IMG/VR virus record: IMGVR_UViG_3300031957_000828 | Coordinates: 1 to 23,268 of that record | Direction: 5' to 3' (one strand) | DNA from: a virus | Length of the DNA stretch: 23,268 bases | Shown here: positions 5,460 to 22,504 of the stretch, piece by piece | Numbering within the stretch: position 1 is the stretch's first letter | How the letters are laid out: every line of letters starts with the position of its first letter | Program-made: the position numbers and the translations under genes | Notes under the pieces: model-generated | The model's input: the letters and a program-made list of their open reading frames with translations, nothing else | Told to the model about the DNA's origin: nothing | The model's database searches: none

Positions 5460-8400
5460 ATGGCAGACGAAGCATCTTTTGTTCCAATACCTGTAGAAAA
5501 AGAAGTCGTAACTGAATCTTTTGTTCCAATACCTGTAAATCAAACAGGCACTACTGACAGAGGTATTCGTAACACTGCTGAAAGCGAAGGAGTGTTAAAC
5601 GAATTTCAGGAAGGCGTAATGAGTGGTCTTGTTGGAATTGGTCAAGGTATTGGAGAGCTTGCTGCTCTACCCGTGGACATAGCTCTTGACACAGATCTTT
5701 CTTCAAAAGTGACTGAGGGAGCAGAAGCTATTAGAGATTATGCAGGGTTAGATCCTGTTGGTATAGTAGGCGGAGGAGCAGAAGTTGTAACACAATTTGT
5801 ACTTCCCGCTGGAAAAGGAATAAGTCTTGTTAACAAAGCGTCCAAAGCAAAGAGAGCGGCTAAAGGTTTAAAAGATGTTCCTTTAACTAAATCCGAACGT
5901 TTTGGTTTAGCTCTTAAAGAAATAGGGGCGGCTGGTATTGCTGATGTAATAGTTTCTTCTGATGGAACGACAAGCATAGGAGATTTTTTTGAGGGAGGTA
6001 TTACTCAAACAGATAAGACTATTGGATTAGAAGGAAGAGCAGAAGCATTAAGACGTGTAAAAAACAGGTTAAAGTTTGGTGCAGAAGCAGCGGCCATTGG
6101 ATCAATAGCAGAACTTGGGTTAAGAGGTACTGGTTTAGTAGGACAAAAAGCAGTAGCCCCTGCTATAAAAGCAGGTGCACAGACTGCAACAGGGCAAGGA
6201 CTTATTAAAGGAATAACAAAGTACCCCAAACAATTAATTCAAAAGTTAGACGATCTTGAAACTCGCCGGACTACTGCTATGCCAGGATCCTCTCAAGAAC
6301 TTAGTGGAGGTCAAAAAATATTTGTAGATCTAATTGGGACTACAAGATACAGAGGTCTGTTACCAGATGCAATTGCAACGGAAAAACTTTTAACTTCCTC
6401 TAGAATTAAACCTCATATAGATAAAGCTGAGACTACTCTTAATAGACTTAATAAAAATTTAGATTCTGTTTTAAAAAATCTTTCACCATCAGAAACTGCT
6501 GTTCGTAAATCAGAAATATTAAATCAAATTAACGACTATTTAACAAATCCTCTTAAAAAAAGAACACCAAAAGCAGGTCAGCGTTTGTTATCTCCTCCAC
6601 CACAATCAGTTACACAAACACCCAAAACGTCAAACAGCACCAGTCAAAACTTTATTAACAGTCTTCCAAAAGAAATTAGGGCAGATGTTAAAGCTATGAG
6701 AAACCATGTTGATACTTTAAGTACTGATATAAAGAATAGTAATTTTTTAAGAGACAATGATTTTATAAATAAAACTACAGGAAAAAGTATTAAAGATGTT
6801 ATTGAAGATAACTTAGGAACTTATTTACGAAGACGTTACAGAGTTTTTGAAGATGCAAAATATACTCCAGATGCAAAGACTACAAAAATAGCTGATGACT
6901 TTTTTAAAACAAACAAAGATTTTACAGAATCTGAATTAAACAAAGTGTTGAAGTCTTCTCCTCAAGATTTAAATGCTAATGTTGCAACTAGAATTGGTGT
7001 AACTATAAATAATGGAAGAGCAACTGTAGGTGCTTCTGTAACAGATGAAGCTGCAAGAATAGCAAGAGAAAACTTTCTTCGAAGATACAAAGTTAAAAAC
7101 AGAGGTGCTACCTCTGGTGGTAGAGTAGCCTCTGAAAGATTAAATACAAAAATGTTTTTAGAAAAACAAACGTTGCCTCCACAACTAAGAAAATTTTTAG
7201 GGGAGGTGGATGATCCTAGAGATGCTTACCTTGGAACTGTTGCAGACTTAGCTGAGTTTAAAGCTGTTGATGACTTCTTTGGAAAAACTAAATTTCTTGC
7301 AGATAATGACGAAGGTATTGGAAAACTTTTTATTAATCCCACAAAATTAAATCAGACCCAATTAAAAGAAATGTTAGACTCAGGAGATTACGTTCAGTTA
7401 GGAGGAAAAAATGGAAGAAGTACCTTACTGGGAGAAGGCGCTGCAGAAGGCGTGGAAGAAACTTTAAACAGATCTGGGTGGGGTAGCTTATACGGATACG
7501 TTGTACCTGAAACAGTATATAAAAATTTAACAAACTCCATTTTAGCTCCAGATGATGTTATTAATCAAATGGCATTAAGTGCTTGGGGAGGGTTTTTAAA
7601 AGTTAAAGCTGGTTCTCAATATAGTAAAACAATTTTATCTCCGGTAACCCAAGTAAGAAATCTTTTAAGTGCAAGTTTGTTTGCTGCCGCTCAAGGAAAT
7701 ATAGGTAAAGGGGCAAACTTATATGATTCTCTTAGATTAGTTTTAGCTGATCTTAGTTCTAGGCCTACAGATGAACTGTTAGAAGAGCTGGCAGACATGA
7801 ACAGGCGAGGTGTTTTGGGAACTCAAGCCGAAGTACGTGAGATACAAGACATGCTTAGAAAGGGTGCTGGGTATAGAGAATCAAATGCTAGTAGTGCAGT
7901 AGAAGGTCTTTTTGGTAAAAAAATAACTGACATAAAAGCTGTTAAAAAAGGTGCGGCAGTTTTAAAAAAAGCAGAAGATGTATACACTGCCTCAGATGAT
8001 CTTTGGAAAATTTACAATTATACATTTGAACAAAACAAATTAAGAAATGCTTTAGACTCATTAAGTATGGAAGATAAAGTTAAGTACTTAACCTCTAATC
8101 TTACTGACGTAGAAAAAGCAATGCAACGTAGTGCTCTTAATTCCTCTAATCCTGACCTTGTAATTAAAAACTTAATTAAAGATCGTGCTGCTTCAATTGT
8201 CAGAGAAACTGTTCCAAACTACAACAAAGCTCCTGAAATTATTAGAGCCGCAAGAAAACTTCCTGTTGGTAACTTTATAACTTTTCCATATGAGATTTAT
8301 AGAACAGGATTCAACACACTTAAACAAGGTTTAGATGAGTTTGCTTCAGAAATACCTGGAGTAAGAAAAATTGGAATTAGAAGATTAACTGGGGCTATAA

Positions 8401-9701
8401 CAACTTTTGGTGTTCTTACTCCTACTTTAGCAACTCTTGCTTATAAGCTGTCTGGTGTTGGTAGAGATGAGATGAAGGCTTATCAACGTTCCTTTGCTGC
8501 AGACTGGGAAAAAAATGCTACGTTAATTCCTACAGGGAAAGATGAAGAAGGCAATATAGAGTATATAAATTGGAGCACTTCTAATCCTTATGACACTCTT
8601 GTGAGAGCTTTTAACGGTGCTATGAATGCTATAGGAACTGGAAATAAATTAGATCAATCTGTACCAGTAATTACGGCAAATGTTATAGGTCAAGCATTAA
8701 AAGAAACTGCGGAACCTTTTCTTTCTCAATCAATGGTTGCTGAAGCATTAATAGATGTGCTTCCAGAGGCAATGGCAGGAAGAGCTGGAAGAACTATGAC
8801 AGGAGCAGAAGTATATAATCCACAAGATTCTTTAGGGACAAAAGGTGCTAAAGGTCTTACTCATATTTTTGGCAGTGTTCTACCAAGTGTTATTCCAGTT
8901 AAGGTAAGTCGTGGAGAAATTGAACCTAGCAATTTTGCTCGTGGGTTTGTAGGCACTTTTGCTCCTAATATAATTAGTCCAAAAACCAGAACTGGAGTAG
9001 AAAAAGATTTAACAGAACAATTAATTAGGACAGTTTTAGGAGTAACTCCTTTAAAGTTTGAACCAGAAAAAGGTCTTAGATATAAAGCATACGAGCTTCA
9101 AAGAGAGCAAACAGATGCTAAACGTATTTTTAACGGTGAAACAAATAATTTTAATGCTACCCCTAGAAGTTTTATAAAAAAATATACAGACGCTAATGAG
9201 GCAAAATTTAAGACTGATAAAGTGTATCATCAAATGATTGAAGATCTTAGAACTATGGGTGTTAGAGATAATGAGATCCGAAAAGTATTTAAACGTTACA
9301 GTATCGGTGGTGTTGATGGTATTATGAGAGGAAGGTTTGAACCTTTTGAAATAAATAAAAATCATTACAGAAACATGAACGACACAGGAACACGTTCGTT
9401 GTTTCCTAGACAAGAAATAAACACACTAAGACAAGAGTATCGAAAAAGACGTTTTTTAAAAAACGAAGAGCCAGAACAAGTGAGTACAAATAATGTTCAG
9501 TCTAATACAACATTTCAACCTGTTGTGAGTGCTCAAGTTCCGCCGTCAAGCTTTACTCCAACTCCTGTCAGTCCGCAAAATACAAGACCATCAAGCTTTA
9601 CTCCAACCCCTGTGAGTAGAAATGTTGATCCATCGTTGTTAGGATCAGACCCTATCTCTCAAGCAGCAAATGCTCAGATAGCTAGACGACTCAACACCTA
9701 A
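5460..9701 (+). CDS. Large internal virion / DNA-ejection-type protein
   Basis: At 1413 residues this is the largest gene in the window and the last of the late block. The N-terminus carries SFVPIPV twice (residues 6-12 and 20-26); residues about 45-160 are Gly/Ala/Val-rich with several moderately hydrophobic stretches; the middle is Lys/Asn-rich and helical; a hydrophobic segment (TTFGVLTPTLATLAYKL) lies near residue 980-1000; the C-terminus carries PSSFTPTPVS twice and ends DPISQAANAQIARRLNT. I see no lysozyme, transglycosylase or protease motif. Size, position and composition match the giant internal virion proteins of podoviruses that cross the cell envelope during DNA ejection. The gene converges with the polymerase gene, overlapping it by four bases. 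Role assigned by context and style, not by an identified domain. Confidence 0.6.
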   Translation: MADEASFVPIPVEKEVVTESFVPIPVNQTGTTDRGIRNTAESEGVLNEFQEGVMSGLVGIGQGIGELAALPVDIALDTDLSSKVTEGAEAIRDYAGLDPVGIVGGGAEVVTQFVLPAGKGISLVNKASKAKRAAKGLKDVPLTKSERFGLALKEIGAAGIADVIVSSDGTTSIGDFFEGGITQTDKTIGLEGRAEALRRVKNRLKFGAEAAAIGSIAELGLRGTGLVGQKAVAPAIKAGAQTATGQGLIKGITKYPKQLIQKLDDLETRRTTAMPGSSQELSGGQKIFVDLIGTTRYRGLLPDAIATEKLLTSSRIKPHIDKAETTLNRLNKNLDSVLKNLSPSETAVRKSEILNQINDYLTNPLKKRTPKAGQRLLSPPPQSVTQTPKTSNSTSQNFINSLPKEIRADVKAMRNHVDTLSTDIKNSNFLRDNDFINKTTGKSIKDVIEDNLGTYLRRRYRVFEDAKYTPDAKTTKIADDFFKTNKDFTESELNKVLKSSPQDLNANVATRIGVTINNGRATVGASVTDEAARIARENFLRRYKVKNRGATSGGRVASERLNTKMFLEKQTLPPQLRKFLGEVDDPRDAYLGTVADLAEFKAVDDFFGKTKFLADNDEGIGKLFINPTKLNQTQLKEMLDSGDYVQLGGKNGRSTLLGEGAAEGVEETLNRSGWGSLYGYVVPETVYKNLTNSILAPDDVINQMALSAWGGFLKVKAGSQYSKTILSPVTQVRNLLSASLFAAAQGNIGKGANLYDSLRLVLADLSSRPTDELLEELADMNRRGVLGTQAEVREIQDMLRKGAGYRESNASSAVEGLFGKKITDIKAVKKGAAVLKKAEDVYTASDDLWKIYNYTFEQNKLRNALDSLSMEDKVKYLTSNLTDVEKAMQRSALNSSNPDLVIKNLIKDRAASIVRETVPNYNKAPEIIRAARKLPVGNFITFPYEIYRTGFNTLKQGLDEFASEIPGVRKIGIRRLTGAITTFGVLTPTLATLAYKLSGVGRDEMKAYQRSFAADWEKNATLIPTGKDEEGNIEYINWSTSNPYDTLVRAFNGAMNAIGTGNKLDQSVPVITANVIGQALKETAEPFLSQSMVAEALIDVLPEAMAGRAGRTMTGAEVYNPQDSLGTKGAKGLTHIFGSVLPSVIPVKVSRGEIEPSNFARGFVGTFAPNIISPKTRTGVEKDLTEQLIRTVLGVTPLKFEPEKGLRYKAYELQREQTDAKRIFNGETNNFNATPRSFIKKYTDANEAKFKTDKVYHQMIEDLRTMGVRDNEIRKVFKRYSIGGVDGIMRGRFEPFEINKNHYRNMNDTGTRSLFPRQEINTLRQEYRKRRFLKNEEPEQVSTNNVQSNTTFQPVVSAQVPPSSFTPTPVSPQNTRPSSFTPTPVSRNVDPSLLGSDPISQAANAQIARRLNT
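5475..5537 (+). repeat. Direct repeat encoding SFVPIPV at the N-terminus of the large virion protein
   Basis: The 21-base stretch at 5475-5495 recurs exactly at 5517-5537, spaced by 21 bases. Both copies encode SFVPIPV. The related motif SFTPTPVS is repeated at the other end of the same protein. Confidence 0.9.
9543..9617 (+). repeat. Direct repeat encoding PSSFTPTPVS at the C-terminus of the large virion protein
   Basis: A 30-base unit at 9543-9572 recurs at 9588-9617 with three third-position substitutions, so the encoded ten residues are unchanged. Synonymous-only differences suggest the peptide itself is kept by selection. Confidence 0.85.
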
Positions 9702-11608
9702 CCAACCTCGCCCCAGTTATCTCCTAGTTCCTCGTCTACCTTAGAGGGAACCTTGAGGACATGATCCAAGCCCGTCTCCATAATCTTCGTGATCCTCGTT
9801 GCTTGCTCCTGGTTCTCTACTGAAAAGCACAGTTCGTCATGCACCGTGAGCATTGGAACAAGGCCTTCCTTATGGCAGTCCGCCATTGCCTTCTTAGTTT
9901 GGTCAGCAGCACTGCCCTGTATAAGTTTGTTCAGAGCCTTGTAAGTAAAGGCGCGTCTCAAGTTCATACCGTATTCTTTCTTGGCATCCTCAAGACTCAT
10001 AGGTTTGTTGTACCCAAAGCTCTTGGGTTCCCAAAGATGAAACCTGCACTTGCGTCCCAAGAGTGTGCGAATAACGCCGTGGTTCTGTGCCTGTGCGCTT
10101 GCAATCTCCGCTAGGCCTTTAACAAAAGGAGCCTTAGTGTGGTGCGTTTCAAGTAGTTCTTTCGCATCCTCCTTTGTGACAGCCAACTGGTTGGCTAACT
10201 TAGCCACGCCCATTCCGTACATAATCCCAAGGTTCACGGTCTTGGCTTCCTTACGTGTGATCCCTGCAAAGTCTGCCACCATCTGGTGTAGATCCACATC
10301 TCCTGTGTGGTACTCATCCACAATTGTATCAACCATCGAGTGCTTGCGTGAGTCCGGTAGGCTTGCTGCAAAGTGCACCAAGAGCCTTGGTTCTTGGCTT
10401 GCGTAGTCAAACGATCCCCACTTGCACCCCTCATCAGGAATAAACAAGCCTCGGATTAGTTTCTTAATAACAGGATCTCTTGCAGGAAGCTGCTGTAAGT
10501 TAGGGTTGGAGCTTGAGAACCGCCCTGTTACAGTGCCTCCGTCATCGGATCTAAGTTGGTGAAACTCCGCATGTATCCTACCTTTGTGCTCATAGCGTAG
10601 TATACTGTCAATGAATGTACTGTCTGCTTTGTCTGCCTCACGCAGTTTAACAATCGCCTGGGCTACTTCGTGTGGATGGGAGGACAGGTACTGCTTGGTA
10701 AAGGATGGTGCCCCTGCTTCCGTCTTAGGATACTTTAGATCCAACTTATCAAACACCGTCTTGACTGACGCCCCTGCCCACGGTTCTATCTCTATGCCTG
10801 TCTTGTCTTTGATAAACGCACGTAGCTCCTTGGTTCTAACTTGCAATTGTTTCTTTGCTATGTCCGCCTGGTCAATGTCTACTCGAACACCTCTCTGTTT
10901 CATCTGCACCATCAAAGGTATCAGGCTTGTCTCCAACTCCCACACGTTCCAAAGTTCCTGCTTGTCTAATTCAATTCGCAATCGCTCCCATAACTTGAGC
11001 GTCATCACGGCGTCTTGCTCGGCATAGGCTCCCACTGTTGAAGGTGGTAGGATCCACATGTCTGCCTTTGGATCGATACCCCAGTCCTTTGCTGTTGCTC
11101 GAAGCAGCCGCTCGTCTTTCCTCATGTCAATCCAATCACGGCCTAAGTTGTTTAGGCTGTAGGAAAATCTGTTCTCGTCAACGATAGCTCCTGTCACCAT
11201 TGTATCAATGATCCGACCTTGTATATCAACGCCCTCCGCACTTAGCCAACCTGCATCGTAGGTCGCATTGTGCATGACCTTATCTATGTGAGGTGTTGCC
11301 ATCTGCTTCTTGAACCATTTCATCGTAACCTTTGGATCTAGGTTGTGTCCGTTCTGGTGCCGGATAGGAAAGTACCCATAGTAATCCCCTGCTGCAACAG
11401 CGATGCCAACGATAAACCCATCGTTCCTTGCCCACCCTGGGCCAAACTTCTTTAGGTTGGGGTCGCATGTCTCAAGGTCTACGGCTATTTGTTTATATCC
11501 TGTAAGGTCTGGATACTCCGTTGGTATGTTCCAATCCTTGTCAATAATATCTATATCCATGCGCTCAAGATAATTTATTGTACTCTTGTCTTTACGGTCT
11601 CTTGCCAT
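9698..11608 (-). CDS. polA: Family A (Pol I-type) DNA polymerase with 3'-5' exonuclease
   Basis: Replicative phage polymerase, 636 residues from the ATG at 11608. That start is chosen because GGAG precedes it by ten bases and its A is shared with the upstream stop (TAATG); a longer open frame back to 11710 only overlaps the upstream gene. Proofreading motifs: Exo I D44/E46 (AVDLET), Exo II N114-D118 (HNATYD), Exo III Y195-D199 (YAEQD). Polymerase motifs: TGRFSSSNPNLQQLPAR at 361-377, motif A D401 (DYASQEPR), motif B K456-Y464 (KTVNLGIMYG), motif C H590-D591-E592 (VHDE). No 5'-3' nuclease domain is present, as usual in phages. The residue matching E. coli Pol I Phe762 is Leu460. The last gene of the replication operon. 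Confidence 0.97.
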   Translation of the reverse strand: MARDRKDKSTINYLERMDIDIIDKDWNIPTEYPDLTGYKQIAVDLETCDPNLKKFGPGWARNDGFIVGIAVAAGDYYGYFPIRHQNGHNLDPKVTMKWFKKQMATPHIDKVMHNATYDAGWLSAEGVDIQGRIIDTMVTGAIVDENRFSYSLNNLGRDWIDMRKDERLLRATAKDWGIDPKADMWILPPSTVGAYAEQDAVMTLKLWERLRIELDKQELWNVWELETSLIPLMVQMKQRGVRVDIDQADIAKKQLQVRTKELRAFIKDKTGIEIEPWAGASVKTVFDKLDLKYPKTEAGAPSFTKQYLSSHPHEVAQAIVKLREADKADSTFIDSILRYEHKGRIHAEFHQLRSDDGGTVTGRFSSSNPNLQQLPARDPVIKKLIRGLFIPDEGCKWGSFDYASQEPRLLVHFAASLPDSRKHSMVDTIVDEYHTGDVDLHQMVADFAGITRKEAKTVNLGIMYGMGVAKLANQLAVTKEDAKELLETHHTKAPFVKGLAEIASAQAQNHGVIRTLLGRKCRFHLWEPKSFGYNKPMSLEDAKKEYGMNLRRAFTYKALNKLIQGSAADQTKKAMADCHKEGLVPMLTVHDELCFSVENQEQATRITKIMETGLDHVLKVPSKVDEELGDNWGEVG

Positions 11609-11862
11609 TAATCTTCTCCACCCAGTGCAGCGTAGCCACAGATGTCCACCCAACTGTCCTCGTGTTCTGGTGTCTCGATCAAACGTGATACCTTTAATTG
11701 CACCAGGCATAAATACACCTGGTCAACTGTTATGTCTTGTCCAAGGATCACCGACCATAACCTTGCCACACGCATGTGGTTTACGGTTGCGTCACCATAG
11801 TCCTTGGCTCTGGGACCATTGATGTAGCCCTCTGCTTTTTGTAGTATTTCTTCTCGTTTCAT
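11608..11862 (-). CDS. DUF6378-type small phage protein
   Basis: An 84-residue protein. The start at 11862 follows AGAGGTAAAT and gives MKREEILQKAEGYI; an upstream ATG at 11919 lies inside the neighbouring gene and lacks a ribosome site. Conserved features are GPRAKDYGDA (residues 16-25), LWSVILG (35-41) and a C-terminal HEDSWVDICGYAALGGE (67-83). I recognise this pattern as DUF6378, a family common in phage replication and nucleotide-metabolism neighbourhoods whose biochemical role is not established; the D/H/E-rich pattern recalls helical MazG- or HD-like pyrophosphatases, but that is a guess. It is translationally coupled to the polymerase (TAATG). Confidence 0.75.
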   Translation of the reverse strand: MKREEILQKAEGYINGPRAKDYGDATVNHMRVARLWSVILGQDITVDQVYLCLVQLKVSRLIETPEHEDSWVDICGYAALGGED

Positions 11863-11870
11863 ATTTACCT

Positions 11871-12551
11871 CTAAATTAAAGACATTTGTGTTTCTTTTAT
11901 TAACCACTTTTTCCAACATTGAACTGAATCAATTCTTCTAGCCATTCTCTCTGGACAAACTTGTTGCCCTATGTTTTTAAAATTTCTAGCGACATTTGTA
12001 CTATCGGCAGAAGCAAAAGGCCAAACATCTCCACATAAAGAAAGCCCTCGCATCATATGTACCCAAGGTCGAAAACCTCTTTTAGTTAATTCATTCCAGG
12101 CTTCATCACATCTGTTAGCCCAAACATCAGAACCAACTTGCCAATATTGCCCTGAAGAACCAAAACAAAACCTTGGATAATTGTCTGCAATTTCAAGTAA
12201 CCAATCTATAGATAAATTCATATGCCAAACAGGAGCAGAAAGTTCTTTAGAGTAAGGCCATTGAATCATTAACTTTTTTTGATCTTGTATCGTCCCACCA
12301 ATTATATCGGGTATTACCCCCCAATGCGGGGGATAAAGAAACTCCTCAACCCAAGATATAAAACCTTTTAAATCAAATTCTTTACCTTGGGTGTAAGAAG
12401 TAAACGCACCATTATCCCACATAACAGATTGAGCATTTTTAAAACACCATTCTGCATTAAATGGATTAGCATAACTAACACAGAAATTTTTCCCAGCCAT
12501 CTTTAACAGTTCAACGTTGGGTGTTATGGGAGTGCCGTGATAATGAATCAT
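11871..12551 (-). CDS. dpdA: DpdA-like DNA guanine transglycosylase (7-deazaguanine insertion)
   Basis: A 226-residue protein of the TGT-like superfamily in its phage DpdA form. Such enzymes exchange guanine in DNA for a 7-deazaguanine base such as preQ0. It starts MIHYHGTPITP; the HGTPITP opening is what I remember of phage DpdA proteins. Barrel motifs follow: WDNGAFTSY (D46), GVIPDIIGG (D82), WHMN (H110), FGSSGQYW (130-137), HMMRG (165-169) and FASADSTN (D183). Conserved aspartates are expected as catalytic acid/base and nucleophile; which is which is not visible here. The bacterial tRNA-TGT zinc site is absent. The start at 12551 overlaps the transporter stop as ATGA; an upstream ATG at 12566 would add five residues. 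It is AT-richer than the polymerase and helicase genes around it. A tRNA substrate cannot be excluded, but the family and phage context favour DNA. Confidence 0.8.
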   Translation of the reverse strand: MIHYHGTPITPNVELLKMAGKNFCVSYANPFNAEWCFKNAQSVMWDNGAFTSYTQGKEFDLKGFISWVEEFLYPPHWGVIPDIIGGTIQDQKKLMIQWPYSKELSAPVWHMNLSIDWLLEIADNYPRFCFGSSGQYWQVGSDVWANRCDEAWNELTKRGFRPWVHMMRGLSLCGDVWPFASADSTNVARNFKNIGQQVCPERMARRIDSVQCWKKWLIKETQMSLI

Positions 12552-13003
12552 TTTAAAGATAACCAAACAATAACTGACGCAATCATTTTAGAAACAACCA
12601 TTACAAAAAATGCTGTCCAACCAAAAAACCCTGCAACAACCAAGAACACAAGACTATCCACTGGAACAGATATTGCAGAAGATAAAAGTATTCTATCTTT
12701 CATAGGTCTTTTTGTTTTAGTGTACACAGCCCAATCTGTTGCCTCTGAAACTATAAAGGCTAAAGCGGATGCCATCGCTATAAACGGATCTGCCATTAAG
12801 TAACTAAGTAAAATACCAACTGCCATTGGAACCCAAACATAATGACCTAAATCTTTTTGTGCGTAGTCTCTTAATATAAAAACAGCACCAACTAAAAATG
12901 TCATTGGCGGTAAAGCTGCACCAAACACAAACCAAGGTTCTATAACAGAAAACCCATAATTAACAGCAACAATTGCCGCTACATATAATAAAGCATATTT
13001 CAT
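12548..13003 (-). CDS. yhhQ: YhhQ-like queuosine/7-deazapurine precursor transporter
   Basis: A 151-residue, strongly hydrophobic inner-membrane protein with about six predicted transmembrane segments (roughly 3-22, 26-46, 55-71, 74-90, 106-124, 127-148). The motifs FILRDYAQ (42-49), SEATDWAVY (86-94) and SVPVDSLVF (112-120) match the YhhQ/VUT family (old name DUF165), which imports queuosine precursors such as preQ0 and preQ1. It is shorter than most bacterial YhhQ proteins, which are usually above 200 residues. The start at 13003 is preferred because AGAGG lies about eight bases upstream; an ATG at 13027 overlaps the helicase gene. Its stop overlaps the DpdA start (ATGA), which ties import of the base to its insertion. 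Confidence 0.85.
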   Translation of the reverse strand: MKYALLYVAAIVAVNYGFSVIEPWFVFGAALPPMTFLVGAVFILRDYAQKDLGHYVWVPMAVGILLSYLMADPFIAMASALAFIVSEATDWAVYTKTKRPMKDRILLSSAISVPVDSLVFLVVAGFFGWTAFFVMVVSKMIASVIVWLSLK

Positions 13004-13016
13004 TTTATTTTCCTCT

Positions 13017-14546
13017 TCATATCTCATACCTGTATTTCTTGATTGATTCTAAAATGTGTAAGTTCTTCTTGGTTCTTGTAACGCCCACATAAAACGCACG
13101 ATGCTCATCGTCTGGATACTTGCTCTCAGTACAAGCCTTCGTTGATCCTGTATAAACTAAACAGTTGTCATCCTCCCCACCCTTCATCGCATGAAACGTA
13201 GACAACTTAATGCGAGGCTTATCCATAATACTCTCCCCTGATTCCTCAATAACCTCAATGTATAACCTATCATCTCGACCCAAGTTCATTATAGAAAAAC
13301 AACTACGATCTATCGGTGCCTTCATCCCATAGTCTTGAACCAAATCGTTATAGCTTAACGAACCATCCTCCGGTGCTGCCTCCAACAAGGTACTCGAACC
13401 TCGCTTCACAACCGCACCGTCTCCCTGTTTGGGCACATTCTTATACAGGTTCTTAATTAAATGCACCCCAACGCGCTCACCTCCCTGCAAACGACGCCAT
13501 ACCTCTATGCCCTCCGCTACCTCTGGCTTTATACTAGGCCTTCCTTTTATGCTGTACAAAAACCCAAAGTTCCTAATCTGATCAGCGAAGTCTGATACGT
13601 AGCTGTTGGTTCGAGCCATGATAGTCCACGAACCTTGCTCTAATGGAACACTTCCAAGACTGTTGTGCCAAGTAACCGAGCCTTGTTCTTTAGCTGGTGC
13701 AAACTCCTTTATCTTCCTAGTACGTATGCGTTTAACAATACGCTTGGAAAGATTAAACACTGCCACTGGCATTCGATAAGACTTGGTAAGGATTTTTACT
13801 GTATCAGAAGATTCCAAAAACTCGTTCACATCAACCCCTGTCCAACGATGTATTGCTTGGTCGTCATCCCCTGCAAGGTAAACCTTCTCTGCTCTCGTAG
13901 ACATGCGATCAACCATCTCCCACTGCACTGGCGTTAAGTCTTGTGCCTCGTCAACGATCAGTAGATCCAAGTAAGGTGGTTCTGCTATATCAATATAATT
14001 CTCTATGAAATCTGCAAAGTCTACCTTCTGCATCTTGCTCTTGTATTCTTGCAGCTGTTTCTCAACCTGTTCTAATTTAGAAAACCAAATTGTATAGTTC
14101 GCCGCTTCGTTATACTCCTGCTCCAACGAAATCCTTCGAGACCGAGCACGAGACACCATATCAAGGTACATTTTTCCTGACCCACCAATCTGAACTTGAG
14201 GCAATCCATCGTCAGGAGACACTCCATCCTTGCTGTCAATAACAACACCCAACAACTTACCCAACGCTTTGTAGTCTTTGGCCTTCATCAAATCGTCTGA
14301 CTGCAACCCAAGTCCCCAAAAGGCTGTGGCATGTAGCGTTTTAAAGTGGGGCAGCTCCTTCTCTGTTAAAGAAAACTTGGAGCAAGCACGTTCAATAGCT
14401 TCGGCAATCGCCTTACGTGTAAAAGAAATAAAGGCAATCCTAGAAGGATCGCCCCCATTGTCTAAATACTCTTGGATAATCTCCATGAGTGTGTAAGTCT
14501 TACCACAACCAGGTGGCCCAAAGATAATGGTGCTATTCTTTATCAT
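13017..14546 (-). CDS. UvrD/Rep-like superfamily 1 DNA helicase
   Basis: A 509-residue ATP-dependent helicase. Motifs in order: Walker A GPPGCGKT (residues 10-17), motif Ia-like FISFTRKA (39-46), motif II DEAQD (199-203), motif III GDDDQAIHRW (226-235), motif V STFHAMKGGE (449-458) and motif VI VGVTRTKKNLHIL (487-499). All are intact, so an active 3'-5' translocase is expected. It is shorter than UvrD (about 720 residues), as is common for phage versions with reduced 1B/2B domains. The ATG lies inside the end of the AlpA-like gene (14-base overlap) with AGAGG eight bases upstream. It probably serves as replicative or recombination helicase next to the primase. Confidence 0.93.
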   Translation of the reverse strand: MIKNSTIIFGPPGCGKTYTLMEIIQEYLDNGGDPSRIAFISFTRKAIAEAIERACSKFSLTEKELPHFKTLHATAFWGLGLQSDDLMKAKDYKALGKLLGVVIDSKDGVSPDDGLPQVQIGGSGKMYLDMVSRARSRRISLEQEYNEAANYTIWFSKLEQVEKQLQEYKSKMQKVDFADFIENYIDIAEPPYLDLLIVDEAQDLTPVQWEMVDRMSTRAEKVYLAGDDDQAIHRWTGVDVNEFLESSDTVKILTKSYRMPVAVFNLSKRIVKRIRTRKIKEFAPAKEQGSVTWHNSLGSVPLEQGSWTIMARTNSYVSDFADQIRNFGFLYSIKGRPSIKPEVAEGIEVWRRLQGGERVGVHLIKNLYKNVPKQGDGAVVKRGSSTLLEAAPEDGSLSYNDLVQDYGMKAPIDRSCFSIMNLGRDDRLYIEVIEESGESIMDKPRIKLSTFHAMKGGEDDNCLVYTGSTKACTESKYPDDEHRAFYVGVTRTKKNLHILESIKKYRYEI

Positions 14547-14754
14547 AGATCTTACCTCTTGGCCGAGAGTTGACCCAATCCTCTATCTCTGTAAGCACCC
14601 ACCTACTGGCAGTACGCTTGTTGGACTCGTCTCCTAGCACTAAGGGTTGAGGGAAATCCCCTGCCTTAGTCCATTTGTATATTGCTGATGTAGATACGCC
14701 GAGCAGTTCAGCTACCTCCGACACACGCAACAGTCGATTAGAAGGGGATGTCAT
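14533..14754 (-). CDS. AlpA/excisionase-like HTH DNA-binding protein
   Basis: A 73-residue protein with one winged-helix MerR/AlpA-type domain: LLRVSEVAELLGVSTSAIYKW (helix-turn-helix, about residues 8-28), then GDFPQPL and a short wing ending WVLTEIEDWVNSR. GGAGG lies six bases before the ATG. The gene starts inside the last codons of the primase gene (17-base overlap), so the primase tail codons are read in two frames. In phages this fold serves as transcription regulator, excisionase or replication accessory; with no integrase visible, a regulatory or replication-initiation role within the operon is more likely than excision. Target site unknown. Confidence 0.85.
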   Translation of the reverse strand: MTSPSNRLLRVSEVAELLGVSTSAIYKWTKAGDFPQPLVLGDESNKRTASRWVLTEIEDWVNSRPRGKIYDKE

Positions 14755-16270
14755 CTGAAACCTCCGTGATGTTTAAGTCTATTACTTCCTCCTCGAAAGC
14801 AGGAACCCACCATACTCGAAGCGTGGATCTCTTTCCATCCTCGCGATTTATATTCTGATGCCCATGAGCCTCCGCTCCATTGTTTAAACTCTTCAAGGCT
14901 TCTTGGACTTGTGCCCTGTTGTAGAAAGTAAAATGTCGGTTGTGCAAATATAACATAAGACCAGAGATTGTGAACCTTGTTAATCCGTCCTCGGTCCAAG
15001 GCTTTCCCATCTCTAGTTCTTCGGGCACCATAGCCTTTATACGGCTCGTACAGTAGGCTCTAAGGTGTTCCTTAAACTGACCCACCATCGTGAGCTCTTC
15101 GGGCACCTCAAGGTACGTAGCACCCAACATTAGATTACTGACCGTGGCTTGCCATGTCTGTGCTTTAACTGTTGGTGGCATAATATTAATCTGCTCCATG
15201 CAAGCACGTTGCCAAAGCGTTTGGTTCTGTAGCTGTTCTGTTGAAAGCTGCACACGCTTCCCACCTACATCCATGAAGTACAATCGAGGCTCAGACAAAA
15301 GAGTTGTAAGCCCACCCATCTGTGGCATGTCTGGTTGATCCCCACCAACACCGTACTTCTTGGTCTTGCAAATCTCCTTATCGCAGTAACTCTTGAAGGG
15401 TTCCTGCTCACAGGTATAAAAGTATTCTTTCTTGTTCAGTGATTTAACTAGGTTTGTTACCTCTGTCGCTGGCAACGGATCCGCACATAGCGTTCGATTG
15501 ATGTCTTCAAACTTTGACACCCAGTCATCGGGGTTCTTCATCCGGCAATATACACCGCACATAAACAACGTTTTGTTTCGCTCCTCGGATATCTGACCCT
15601 GGCTCGTGATGTGTTGAAGGCAGGGCGGTCCATCTGTAAAATACTTTCTTGGTCCACCTAGCTGCATGGACTCCAACTGGTTTAAGGCTACACGCTCAGA
15701 CTCAATCAGGTTTAAGAACTTGTCTAGCTCTAAGGCCTCACCCTTTGCATTGAACCCATAGCGCATGGTTTCTTCTGCTTTAAAGTATGGGATGTTAATA
15801 AAGTTACCAACATCCCCTCGCTCTGCTAGGATTGAATCTTGTTTGGGAAAGATCTCGCACCCAGAAAACCCTAGTGCAATAGACATCTCCGTCAGGTACT
15901 CACGTATAACGGAGGCCTGTTCGTATTCTTTTAGAAATAAATATAAGTGTGCCCCACCGGACTTGGATCTACAGTGAACCAAGGGGAGCTTTAATTTATA
16001 TATCTTTTGTGTAAGAGATTTATGATCTAGGTCATACGTGTCAATGTCCAGTGCTCCAAACTTGCACATGTTATTTTCATTGATCGGTATAGCACCCACA
16101 CCTTGAACACCATCGATGTGTTCTTGTATCTTCTCAACAGTCATAGGCTCTCGAACGATCCGGCTATCTGCTTCAGCCTTTCCGTTCCTTCCTACTCTTC
16201 CAACCGTCGTCGTACCGTGTGCCACGGTTGACCCTTGAAAAGCTTTCATAAGTCTTTCTGCATAAGACAT
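14738..16270 (-). CDS. Archaeo-eukaryotic-type primase (TOTE primase-polymerase-like)
   Basis: A 510-residue protein. The catalytic AEP core is visible: metal-binding D75-I-D77 (FGALDIDTYD), the SGGAH motif S104-H108 (CRSKSGGAHLY), FPKQ at 141-144 and the GNFINIPY sugar/NTP-site motif at 155-162. This arrangement is the one I know from TOTE-conflict-type primases. A Cys cluster (YTCEQEPFKSYCDKEIC) around residues 292-308 may bind zinc. The C-terminal part is probably all-helical and unassigned; no helicase Walker motif is present, so unwinding must come from the separate UvrD-like or SNF2-like proteins. The last residues, DDIPF, copy the SSB-type tip. AAGGAT precedes the ATG. A terminator sits just upstream. 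Confidence 0.85.
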   Translation of the reverse strand: MSYAERLMKAFQGSTVAHGTTTVGRVGRNGKAEADSRIVREPMTVEKIQEHIDGVQGVGAIPINENNMCKFGALDIDTYDLDHKSLTQKIYKLKLPLVHCRSKSGGAHLYLFLKEYEQASVIREYLTEMSIALGFSGCEIFPKQDSILAERGDVGNFINIPYFKAEETMRYGFNAKGEALELDKFLNLIESERVALNQLESMQLGGPRKYFTDGPPCLQHITSQGQISEERNKTLFMCGVYCRMKNPDDWVSKFEDINRTLCADPLPATEVTNLVKSLNKKEYFYTCEQEPFKSYCDKEICKTKKYGVGGDQPDMPQMGGLTTLLSEPRLYFMDVGGKRVQLSTEQLQNQTLWQRACMEQINIMPPTVKAQTWQATVSNLMLGATYLEVPEELTMVGQFKEHLRAYCTSRIKAMVPEELEMGKPWTEDGLTRFTISGLMLYLHNRHFTFYNRAQVQEALKSLNNGAEAHGHQNINREDGKRSTLRVWWVPAFEEEVIDLNITEVSDDIPF

Positions 16271-20109: not shown

Positions 20110-21175
20110 ATACTTTCTCCTTGCTGATCTTAGGTTGATGATAACTTTTTTGAGTTCCAAATGCAGGATGTCCTGCCCAATACCCTTCTATCCAAGTCCA
20201 CCATAGCGCACGATGTCTTAAAATCATTGCTTGGGGTCTACGTTTTGACATAGGATGATGTTCTTCAGCCAGTCTCCAATGACCTCGACGGAAGTGTAAA
20301 GCTTTCTTGTGAAATCCGGCATCATAGGGCTCTTTGGCAACAACAGGTTTGTCAATGTTCCAAGAGATCTTTGTCCAAGCATCAGTGGCTTTTCCAAAGC
20401 CACGGCTTGCATTGCGTCTTTGCTGCCTTGTCCCTGCCAGAGTTCGTGTGACGTATCTTGTTTGGTTGATCGTCATAACAAGGAACGCAAGACTGGACAT
20501 CATTTCAATATGCTCCTCGTCACTCCAACCTTGGAACTCTTCGCTTACTCCAAAACCTGGTTTACCTATCTCCCAAGAGCCCATTGGTATTACAGGCCAG
20601 ATACCTCCTCCAGCTTTTTTCATTGATTCCGTGTTATCATACACTAAAAAAGTATGTGTCTTATCACTATTAAAGCGGTCACGCATCAGCAAAAAGTTAT
20701 GTTTTGCATCGGGAATTTCTATAGATAGAAACATATTGCTAGCACATAAGGTGCAGTCTGAAGGAATGGGTATTGCTTCCTTCCTATCATACAAAGCATC
20801 CTTTGCGTGAATGCCTGCGAACACAAACAGTTCTTCACTAATTTCAAAAGGTTGTGCGTATCTAATAGCATCCGCTTCAATCCAACTATCTTCATCGTCA
20901 CGTTCCGTTTTCATAAAACTTAAACCTGGACTGTTTTCTAAATTACGCATCGCTAATTTTAAAGTGCCTTGTTTTTGAAGCTCATTTACACTATCAATAA
21001 TATTTAAAACTCCTGTATATTTTTCAATTACACCAACATTTTTATTGTTGCGTAAGTTAGGTCGAAGTTTCAAAAGGTTTTCTATGGCATCAGTTGATCC
21101 CAACTCTCTCATTTCTCCTTTGTCACTCATATAACTTATGGGATTATTGATATCTAGGTTTTGTTTAATCTTCAT
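20102..21175 (-). CDS. Phage protein of unknown function with RGHWR-type C-terminal block
   Basis: A 357-residue soluble protein. The N-terminal 90 residues are polar; residues 95-250 form a mixed alpha/beta region with DCTLCASNMF (near 138-147) and an Ala/Leu-rich helix (EHIEMMSSLAFLVMTINQTR). The C-terminal quarter is rich in His, Arg and Trp: HFRRGHWRLAEEHH, then ILRHRALWWTWIEGYW and AGHPAFG. I remember similar RGHWR-containing endings from many unrelated phage hypothetical proteins, with no known biochemistry; the density of His/Arg suggests nucleic-acid or metal binding. It starts on the methyltransferase stop (ATGA) with GGAGGAG upstream, so the two are co-translated. Confidence 0.75.
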   Translation of the reverse strand: MKIKQNLDINNPISYMSDKGEMRELGSTDAIENLLKLRPNLRNNKNVGVIEKYTGVLNIIDSVNELQKQGTLKLAMRNLENSPGLSFMKTERDDEDSWIEADAIRYAQPFEISEELFVFAGIHAKDALYDRKEAIPIPSDCTLCASNMFLSIEIPDAKHNFLLMRDRFNSDKTHTFLVYDNTESMKKAGGGIWPVIPMGSWEIGKPGFGVSEEFQGWSDEEHIEMMSSLAFLVMTINQTRYVTRTLAGTRQQRRNASRGFGKATDAWTKISWNIDKPVVAKEPYDAGFHKKALHFRRGHWRLAEEHHPMSKRRPQAMILRHRALWWTWIEGYWAGHPAFGTQKSYHQPKISKEKVYG

Positions 21176-22284
21176 TTCAGCTCCTCCTTTATTGCTAATC
21201 CTATGTTCATTGCTATCTGTGGCACAATCGCGTTGCCTAGTCCTTTAAGTCTGTCCACCCTTCGGGGTATCCCATGAGCCACTCGACCCACGTCGGGTTC
21301 AACTGACCACCAGTTTTCGCCTGATTGTCCGTATGCTGAACTGCTACATCCAGAGTGTCCCAACTTACTTTGCCGTTCCGAATCCGACCGCCTTGATAAC
21401 CGCCCTTGTAATCCCTTGTCGCTGGTGTCGGCCACATCTTCTCCGCGTGGTTCACCGCGTCTCGCAGCTTCACGCCCCACCGAACTCCGTCCTTGTTCTT
21501 CCGACTGAACGTTCCGTTCTCCAACTCCACGTCCTGCGCTGTTCCCCCCTCCACGTCCGATGCCGTTGGGGTCGGCCAGTTCTTGACGTAAAGATCCATC
21601 GTCTTCTCGTCCACTTGCTCTCGAAGATTGCTCGGTCTGGCTCTGCCCTTGCGATGACCCTCTTGCATCTTCTTCGTTGACTCCTCCGACCTTGGCGGTA
21701 GATGATCCATCGTGTTGGGCGTTGCCCACATCTCTTTCCCCCAACTGCCCTTGTCTCTGTTCACCATGCTCGGTGACATCTGATTGGCTGTCGCTGTTGG
21801 AGTGTGCAACAATCCAGAGTCTGTCTCTTCGATGGGGAGCGTTGACACCGCAAGCTGGAACAACAAACGTCCTTGTGGAGTAGCCTTCGGCTTCCAAGTC
21901 AAGCAACACCTGGTCGAGACCCAAGGCAATGTGACCATGAACGTTTTCGAAAACGCACCAAGTCGGTCTTTTTTGTGCAACAATTCTAAGGATGTACGGC
22001 CAGATGTGGCGGTCATCTTCAAAGCCTTTTTGCCTCCCCGCGACGGAGAAGGGTTGGCAGGGGTATCCCGCTGTGAGGATATCGTGTTCGGGAACAAGTC
22101 TTTCTGGGTCATTAGCTAACTCCTTTACATCTGCAGCTATGGGTACATTTGGAAAATTCTTTGCGAGTATCTCACGACACCAAGGCTCAGTGTCGCAAAA
22201 CAATATAGGGGTGGACAACTGTGCCCACTCAAAACCGAGACTAAAGCCCCCGATCCCCGAACATAGGTCAACGTGTCTAAGCAT
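21172..22284 (-). CDS. C5-cytosine DNA methyltransferase
   Basis: A 370-residue enzyme that methylates cytosine C5 in DNA with S-adenosylmethionine. Motif I DLCSGIGGFSLGF (6-18), motif IV GYPCQPFS with catalytic C76, motif VI FENV (112-115, E113), motif VIII RRDRLWIVA (152-160) and motif X GLGNAIVPQIAMNIG (348-362) are all intact. Residues about 161-325, where the target-recognition domain belongs, are unusual: low complexity, rich in Ser, Gly, Gln, Arg and Asp. The same bases hold a second long ORF. The start at 22284 overlaps the upstream gene by eight bases; longer in-frame starts lie within that gene. No restriction endonuclease is visible, so it is probably a solitary protective methyltransferase. 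Confidence 0.93.
   Translation of the reverse strand: MLRHVDLCSGIGGFSLGFEWAQLSTPILFCDTEPWCREILAKNFPNVPIAADVKELANDPERLVPEHDILTAGYPCQPFSVAGRQKGFEDDRHIWPYILRIVAQKRPTWCVFENVHGHIALGLDQVLLDLEAEGYSTRTFVVPACGVNAPHRRDRLWIVAHSNSDSQSDVTEHGEQRQGQLGERDVGNAQHDGSSTAKVGGVNEEDARGSSQGQSQTEQSSRASGREDDGSLRQELADPNGIGRGGGNSAGRGVGERNVQSEEQGRSSVGREAARRGEPRGEDVADTSDKGLQGRLSRRSDSERQSKLGHSGCSSSAYGQSGENWWSVEPDVGRVAHGIPRRVDRLKGLGNAIVPQIAMNIGLAIKEELK
21237..22112 (-). CDS. 291-codon ORF nested in the methyltransferase gene (overprinted gene candidate)
   Basis: Same strand as the methyltransferase, one base out of phase, wholly inside it. It has its own Shine-Dalgarno (AAAGGAG, seven bases before ATG). The product looks like an ordered protein, unlike the host frame: SGRTSLELLHKK (42-53), LTWKPKATPQGRLLFQ (72-87), then repeated xPTPxAxD-like units: LLHTPTATA, MWATPNTMDHLPPRS, NWPTPTASDVEGG, MWPTPATRDYKGG, and a C-terminal QLNPTWVEWLMGYPEGW. 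From memory, near-identical motifs (ATPNTMD..PPRS, WPTPTASD, NPxWVEWLMGFPxGWT) recur in ORFs beside or within phage methyltransferase genes. Part of this recurrence could be a by-product of conserved methyltransferase codons at both ends, but that does not explain the middle. Function unknown. Confidence 0.55.
   Translation of the reverse strand: MTQKDLFPNTISSQRDTPANPSPSRGGKKALKMTATSGRTSLELLHKKDRLGAFSKTFMVTLPWVSTRCCLTWKPKATPQGRLLFQLAVSTLPIEETDSGLLHTPTATANQMSPSMVNRDKGSWGKEMWATPNTMDHLPPRSEESTKKMQEGHRKGRARPSNLREQVDEKTMDLYVKNWPTPTASDVEGGTAQDVELENGTFSRKNKDGVRWGVKLRDAVNHAEKMWPTPATRDYKGGYQGGRIRNGKVSWDTLDVAVQHTDNQAKTGGQLNPTWVEWLMGYPEGWTDLKD
22120..22126 (-). promoter_or_regulatory. Internal Shine-Dalgarno for the nested ORF
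   Basis: AAAGGAG on the minus strand, inside the methyltransferase codons for KEL, seven bases before the ATG at 22112. It is a better ribosome site than the one in front of the methyltransferase itself (AAGAG, seven bases). Confidence 0.7.
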
Positions 22285-22504
22285 TGTTGATCTCTTCATA
22301 GTCCTTTGGACTAACATCCATCCAGTAAGGATTAGTGATAAACTCCCTGGTGGTAATGCTCTCCTCAAGCGTATCGATAAACCTATGATACGCAATCTCT
22401 TCAGCTTGCTCCAAGGTCTCCGCTTCAATCGCATCATAATACCGAGAGACCGGATGCTTACAACAATTCTGGTTCATCTCTACTTTAATATTCCACTCAG
22501 CCAT
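22277..22504 (-). CDS. Small protein upstream of the methyltransferase, function unknown
   Basis: A 75-residue protein. The start at 22504 follows GAGGAG by seven bases and gives MAEWNIKVEMNQNCC; longer frames upstream lie in the adjacent gene. After a strand-like start it has a helix (EAETLEQAEEIAYHRFIDTLEE) and a Trp/Tyr-containing end (NPYWMDVSPKDYEE). The pattern, with a beta strand, a Cys-containing loop and a helix with EAETLEQAEEIA, resembles small phage proteins that I know only as hypothetical. It overlaps the methyltransferase start by eight bases, and the upstream 49-residue gene ends eight bases inside it. Confidence 0.7.
   Translation of the reverse strand: MAEWNIKVEMNQNCCKHPVSRYYDAIEAETLEQAEEIAYHRFIDTLEESITTREFITNPYWMDVSPKDYEEINNA

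Follow-up and report, generated by a model that had tools for sequence, protein, structure and literature searches.

Where does a phage that carries a DpdA-type transglycosylase, and no genes for making a 7-deazaguanine base, obtain the base that the enzyme would insert? The source has been puzzling for DpdA phages without synthesis genes, and the locus described here, in which the gene for a putative importer lies next to that of the enzyme, offers a direct and testable answer. We analyzed an entire virus record, linear and 23,268 bases long (the window), which comes from a marine phage and corresponds to ∼40% of the genome of the related phage type. On its minus strand, a primase gene is followed by genes coding for an AlpA-like protein, a UvrD helicase, YhhQ, DpdA, a DUF6378 protein, and a DNA polymerase. 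We propose, with a probability of roughly 0.74, that yhhQ and dpdA together constitute a cassette for DNA modification of the salvage type. The relevant features are as follows:

12548..13003, minus strand: YhhQ/QPTR (Vut_1)-type putative 7-deazaguanine precursor transporter, 151 aa (PF02592, phrog_4899, predicted model)
11871..12551, minus strand: DpdA-like putative guanine transglycosylase, 226 aa (phrog_887, profile match, conserved residues, predicted model)
12548..12551, minus strand: ATGA overlap of the yhhQ stop and the dpdA start (sequence)
13017..14546, minus strand: UvrD-type helicase, upstream flank, outside the cassette (PF00580, E 7.6e-27)
14738-16270, minus strand: primase
11608..11919, minus strand: DUF6378 protein, overlapping the end of dpdA, outside the cassette (PF19905, E 5.6e-30)
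9698..11710, minus strand: family-A DNA polymerase, downstream flank, outside the cassette (PF00476, E 1.7e-60)

The sequence-only reading of this DNA had described a short YhhQ-like gene and a DpdA-like gene overlapping by ATGA within a replication operon, and this layout was borne out, with the pair lying between the helicase and the polymerase. The yhhQ gene extends from an ATG at 13003, preceded by a good ribosome-binding site (GAAGAGGAAAATAAA-ATG), to a stop at 12548. The dpdA gene extends from an ATG at 12551 to a stop at 11871; no clear ribosome-binding site was found upstream of this ATG, and an alternative start, TTG, is located 15 bases upstream (12566). The ATGA overlap suggests that translation of the two genes may be coupled. 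The DNA polymerase was 48 to 52% identical to those of the Pelagibacter phages HTVC023P and HTVC027P and of DSL-LC04 and 023Pt_psg01, whose complete genomes comprise 57.6 to 61.5 kb; judged by this family-A polymerase, the window phage appears to belong near HTVC023P and DSL-LC04. A DUF6378 gene was present at most 3 kb from dpdA in 14 of 81 nonredundant loci (window counted), with both orders of the cassette genes, and is possibly an accessory to the cassette. Elsewhere in the window, a 421-aa open reading frame (ORF; 21172-22437, minus strand) was assigned to the C5-cytosine methyltransferases by PF00145 and phrog_363. Entirely within it, but out of frame, lies a 291-aa ORF (21237-22112, minus strand) that matched phrog_1008, "DNA methyltransferase" (E 3.7e-36), and has relatives in 113 phage records. 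Each of the two nested frames looks like a genuine protein family by its matches and, given the C5-cytosine methyltransferase gene, the phage DNA may contain m5C besides 7-deazaguanine.

The 226-aa protein matched phrog_887, "queuine tRNA-ribosyltransferase" (E 7.5e-40), and had no match in Pfam (PF01702 of the tRNA-guanine transglycosylases [TGTs] included) or in NCBIfam. Its phage relatives were 30 to 49% identical, among them DpdA of Pantoea phage MED16 at 32%. A subfamily profile from which CAjan had been left out aligned with the DpdA proteins of phages with proven 7-deazaguanine DNA (9g and CAjan) with an hhalign probability of 95.6% (E 1.3e-8), and the alignment covered the active-site motifs, i.e., DNGAF/DSGAF, a conserved His, and ADS/CDS. 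In an hmmsearch with this profile, seven proteins of the DpdA1 type (E 6.6e-10 to 2.5e-5) ranked higher than any TGT (best E 0.012), and comparison with 12 host TGTs revealed no sequence kinship (hhalign probability 0.6%). Residues D51, H170, and D188 (231-aa numbering; D46, H165, and D183 counted from the ATG) were invariant in alignments A2, which includes CAjan, and A4, and correspond to the DSGAF motif, the conserved His, and the CDS motif of 9g/CAjan DpdA; from established knowledge of TGTs, we assign these residues to the active site. The predicted model (pLDDT 76) adopted a TGT-like TIM-barrel fold. With VIA-align 2, all 50 entries listed for it were Cap10 and TGTs (Z 11.8 to 13.1), whereas Foldseek by itself put generic TIM barrels at the top (best E 6.7e-3) and brought up no TGTs. 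Searched by sequence, solved structures yielded only chance matches for DpdA and none for YhhQ. Taken together, profile, active-site residues, and predicted fold support the DpdA-like assignment. The missing tRNA-TGT zinc site, which had also been pointed out, is indeed missing (no CxCxxC). As a mark of DpdA it had to be rejected as nondiagnostic, since CxCxxC was absent from 5 of the 12 host tRNA-TGTs (L123, L125, L128, L129, and L134) as well as from all seven DpdA1-type proteins.

The assignment of the upstream gene as YhhQ-like held as well. Its product scored above the Pfam cut-off for PF02592 (31.2 versus 27.2 bits) and matched phrog_4899 (E 5.7e-37). Since it fell below the equivalog cut-off of NCBIfam TIGR00697 (25.6 versus 50.95 bits), as a divergent phage member, we did not apply that name. 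Among its annotated relatives are the proteins called "putative preQ0 transporter" in CAjan (41% identical) and related phages. The predicted model (pLDDT 87) gave a VIA-align 2 list led by ECF-type S-components (best Z 10.3, rmsd 3.6, 150 of 159 residues), consistent with an ECF S-component-like membrane fold. At 151 aa the protein is short, as had been remarked, but not unusually so for a phage: CAjan YhhQ has 159 aa, and the median in cassettes, with starts chosen automatically, was 165 aa.

If the two proteins act together, their genes are expected in each other's company. Among the 80 closest IMG/VR relatives, DpdA and YhhQ were paired in 76 of 78 evaluable loci; the sequences of L017 and L062 end near DpdA and were left out. 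A YhhQ gene stood beside DpdA in 75 of the 80, and L012 holds the end of one at its edge; beside DpdA of L068 and L082, YhhQ was absent. Across all sources, 59 of 81 nonredundant DpdA proteins had a YhhQ gene no more than 3 kb away in the same orientation. Relatives of either protein are rare (DpdA in 102 and YhhQ in 92 of 50,697 phage records), which rules out chance pairing. The ORFs of the pair overlap or directly adjoin each other in the majority of phage loci. Linked loci showed both gene orders and two YhhQ subtypes; a quickly built maximum-likelihood tree of DpdA requires at least 7 switches of gene order and at least 8 of YhhQ subtype, whereas linkage was kept. These results confirmed that the pair is a unit, real beyond chance.

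The cassette also moves between sites. In DSL-LC04, the helicase gene is directly joined to the polymerase gene with no cassette between them, and in HTVC023P, HTVC027P, and 023Pt_psg01 only small genes occupy this position. In L084 and L088, a related replication operon contains the pair in reverse order, located between primase and helicase. For 65 of the 81 nonredundant loci, the surrounding 3 kb yielded no counterpart of the window's replication genes. Related replication operons thus include empty sites as well as insertions at other positions, which supports the proposal that the pair was acquired separately. The compositional argument originally offered for it fared less well. The cassette (36.1% G+C) is the lowest-G+C stretch of the window's replication half and contrasts with the polymerase gene (48.6%) as claimed, but the helicase gene (44.1%) lies outside the range of 48 to 52% given for both. 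Because 11.7% of window stretches of the same length were equally low, and a 1413-aa gene at 5460-9701 has 36.3%, we judged low G+C by itself to be weak evidence of acquisition.

The same pair, without base-making genes, recurs in many unrelated environmental phages. According to the proposed mechanism, the YhhQ-type protein would insert into the inner membrane of the infected host and import a ready-made 7-deazaguanine base, preQ0 or preQ1. The DpdA-like enzyme would then exchange guanines of the phage DNA for the imported base by the TGT mechanism, in which one Asp would attack the sugar carbon and free the guanine, and a second Asp would participate in transferring a proton. Guanines modified in this way would probably hinder host restriction enzymes. 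That DNA is the substrate, which base is used, that import supplies it, and that protection is the benefit are all inferred.

Could the enzyme instead draw on the base pool of the host, with the YhhQ-type protein carrying another purine or being dispensable? COG1738 is heterogeneous in substrate (PMC5372724), and CAjan has YhhQ alongside a full pathway. Moreover, in a set of 23 bacterial genomes with DpdA relatives, most encoded QueC; since most of these hosts make preQ0, import is not always needed. However, linkage well above chance, rebuilt repeatedly with two YhhQ subtypes, and reading frames that overlap or abut in most phage loci make this explanation unlikely. QueC was encoded by all 14 genomes in which DpdA was unlinked to YhhQ, whereas 4 of the 9 with YhhQ-linked DpdA had neither QueC nor QueD, though they had a TGT (lack of QueC, Fisher p 0.014; 23 genomes, all four QueC-less ones being metagenome-assembled genomes [MAGs]). 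Some YhhQ-linked prophages therefore seem, by gene content, to occupy hosts unable to make preQ0. For one of these, the host of L111 (G042, titled Devosia), incompleteness of the MAG was considered as the cause and found unsupported: full-length QueC was lacking in 24 of 31 genomes of the genus, so here the gene is truly lacking and not just missing from the assembly. G042 retains TGT and Vut_1 genes, and its genus may, as this gene content suggests, consist of natural queuosine-precursor salvagers. In this small sample, QueC-less hosts of YhhQ-linked DpdA fit import as a bypass. In another host, that of L113 (G044, titled Massilia), contig C24 carries a second QueC and QueD at ∼472-479 kb; within 7 kb there are also a Vut_1 gene and an ORF with weak similarity to TGT, apart from the main TGT, and the region is possibly a Dpd-type island.

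Import coupled to DNA modification also has to be weighed against an action on tRNA, in which YhhQ and the transglycosylase of the phage would raise queuosine-type modification and thereby aid translation in infection. The PHROG and GenBank labels read "queuine tRNA-ribosyltransferase", the predicted fold is TGT-like, and bacterial YhhQ serves tRNA queuosine (PMC5372724). We nevertheless consider this quite unlikely, because the profile matched DNA-modifying phage DpdA and none of the 12 host TGTs, 22 of the 23 genomes carrying a DpdA relative already have a TGT of their own, the window contains no tRNA gene, and the relative MED16 has modified DNA (PMC8306585).

A phage that made preQ0 itself would have no need of salvage. 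The window was searched with models for FolE, QueD, QueC, radical SAM (the class of QueE), and QueF, and for these genes the earlier statement that FolE, QueD, QueE, QueC, and QueF are absent from it was upheld. QueC was found neither in the window nor in 59 other records with DpdA relatives, whereas that of CAjan, serving as a positive control, was detected. FolE, sought in 40 records, was found in CAjan only, and of the same number of records only CAjan had QueD above the cut-off; Caulobacter phage DMCA has one weak QueD match, below the cut-off, next to its dpdA. With the models for radical SAM and QueF, 21 records were searched, and only CAjan gave matches, again below the cut-off. For the cassette class, these results strongly support the salvage-only reading. 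The window phage itself may likewise be salvage-only, with no preQ0 genes in a window that spans only ∼40% of its genome. As phages of this type have genomes of 57 to 62 kb and the linear record covers only 23 kb, such genes could be placed on the remaining ∼60%, as part of a CAjan-like pathway. This we regard as very unlikely: in CAjan, FolE-QueD-QueE-QueC surround dpdA, which is not so in the window, and the cassette-bearing records searched had no preQ0 genes, including the circular genomes of Pam5 and RHph_N3_2, both of which contain the pair. Finally, use of imported preQ0 on another target, e.g., a protein, as by Cap10 in type IV CBASS, is hardly credible: the top structural match of the DpdA model was Cap10-CdnD carrying an NDG modification (9ntn, Z 13.1), but many TGTs followed within about 1 Z, the sequence kinship is with phage DpdA, the window has no QueC-like partner, and its proteins, scanned against Pfam and PHROGs, include no CD-NTase-like one.

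A salvage cassette of importer and transglycosylase would give a likely function to many genes labeled "hypothetical protein" or "queuine tRNA-ribosyltransferase", and would tie protection of phages from restriction to the way in which aquatic and soil communities exchange queuosine precursors. The broadest form of the proposal, a widespread self-contained cassette that moves between phage lineages and makes DNA protection dependent on an extracellular micronutrient, even in nonproducing hosts, we regard as an even bet.

Several known systems resemble parts of the cassette. E. coli YhhQ/QPTR (COG1738, PF02592) shares with the window protein the PF02592 match above the cut-off and the S-component-like fold, but the phage protein is shorter and falls below the TIGR00697 cut-off. 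DpdA of the 9g/CAjan type (DpdA1) has the same Asp (DxGAF), His, and Asp-Ser motifs and likewise no CxCxxC; it is longer (about 306 versus 226 aa) and only about 17% identical, and CAjan, unlike the cassette phages, encodes its own FolE-QueD-QueE-QueC. The DpdA proteins of MED16 and of Salmonella SEN1/SW9 (phrog_887 group; DpdA/TGT_1 cluster, PMC8306585) are detectable by BLAST (35% over 83%) but have a longer C terminus, and no YhhQ was found within 3 kb of MED16 dpdA. MED16 encodes dpdA without pathway genes and its DNA contains dADG, at a low level that had barely any effect on the restriction enzymes tested (PMC8306585). Further counterparts are Pseudanabaena phage Pam5 and Rhizobium phages RHph_N3_2 and RHph_X2_30, which possess the window's DpdA subfamily (44 to 49% identity) and a Vut_1/DUF165 gene nearby. 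Their YhhQ subtype, however, is longer and has a GPCL-like motif, DpdA comes first in Pam5 and RHph_N3_2, and small genes separate the DpdA and YhhQ genes in Pam5 and RHph_X2_30.

Hutinet et al. (2019) listed 76 phages with DpdA and without the pathway ("group 3"), for which host supply or exogenous uptake was suggested (PMC6884629). Of two DpdA-only phages analyzed there, 7-11 had traces of modification and Orion none (PMC6884629). Our literature search, incomplete in coverage so that an earlier mention is possible, found no description of a YhhQ-DpdA pair. In the 2019 study, YhhQ was encoded by some phages and was uncorrelated with any phage group (PMC6884629), whereas in the subfamily described here it is nearly always paired with DpdA. 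Salvage-only DpdA phages were thus proposed in 2019; what is new is the recurrent two-gene cassette, with a subfamily of short DpdA proteins paired with YhhQ.
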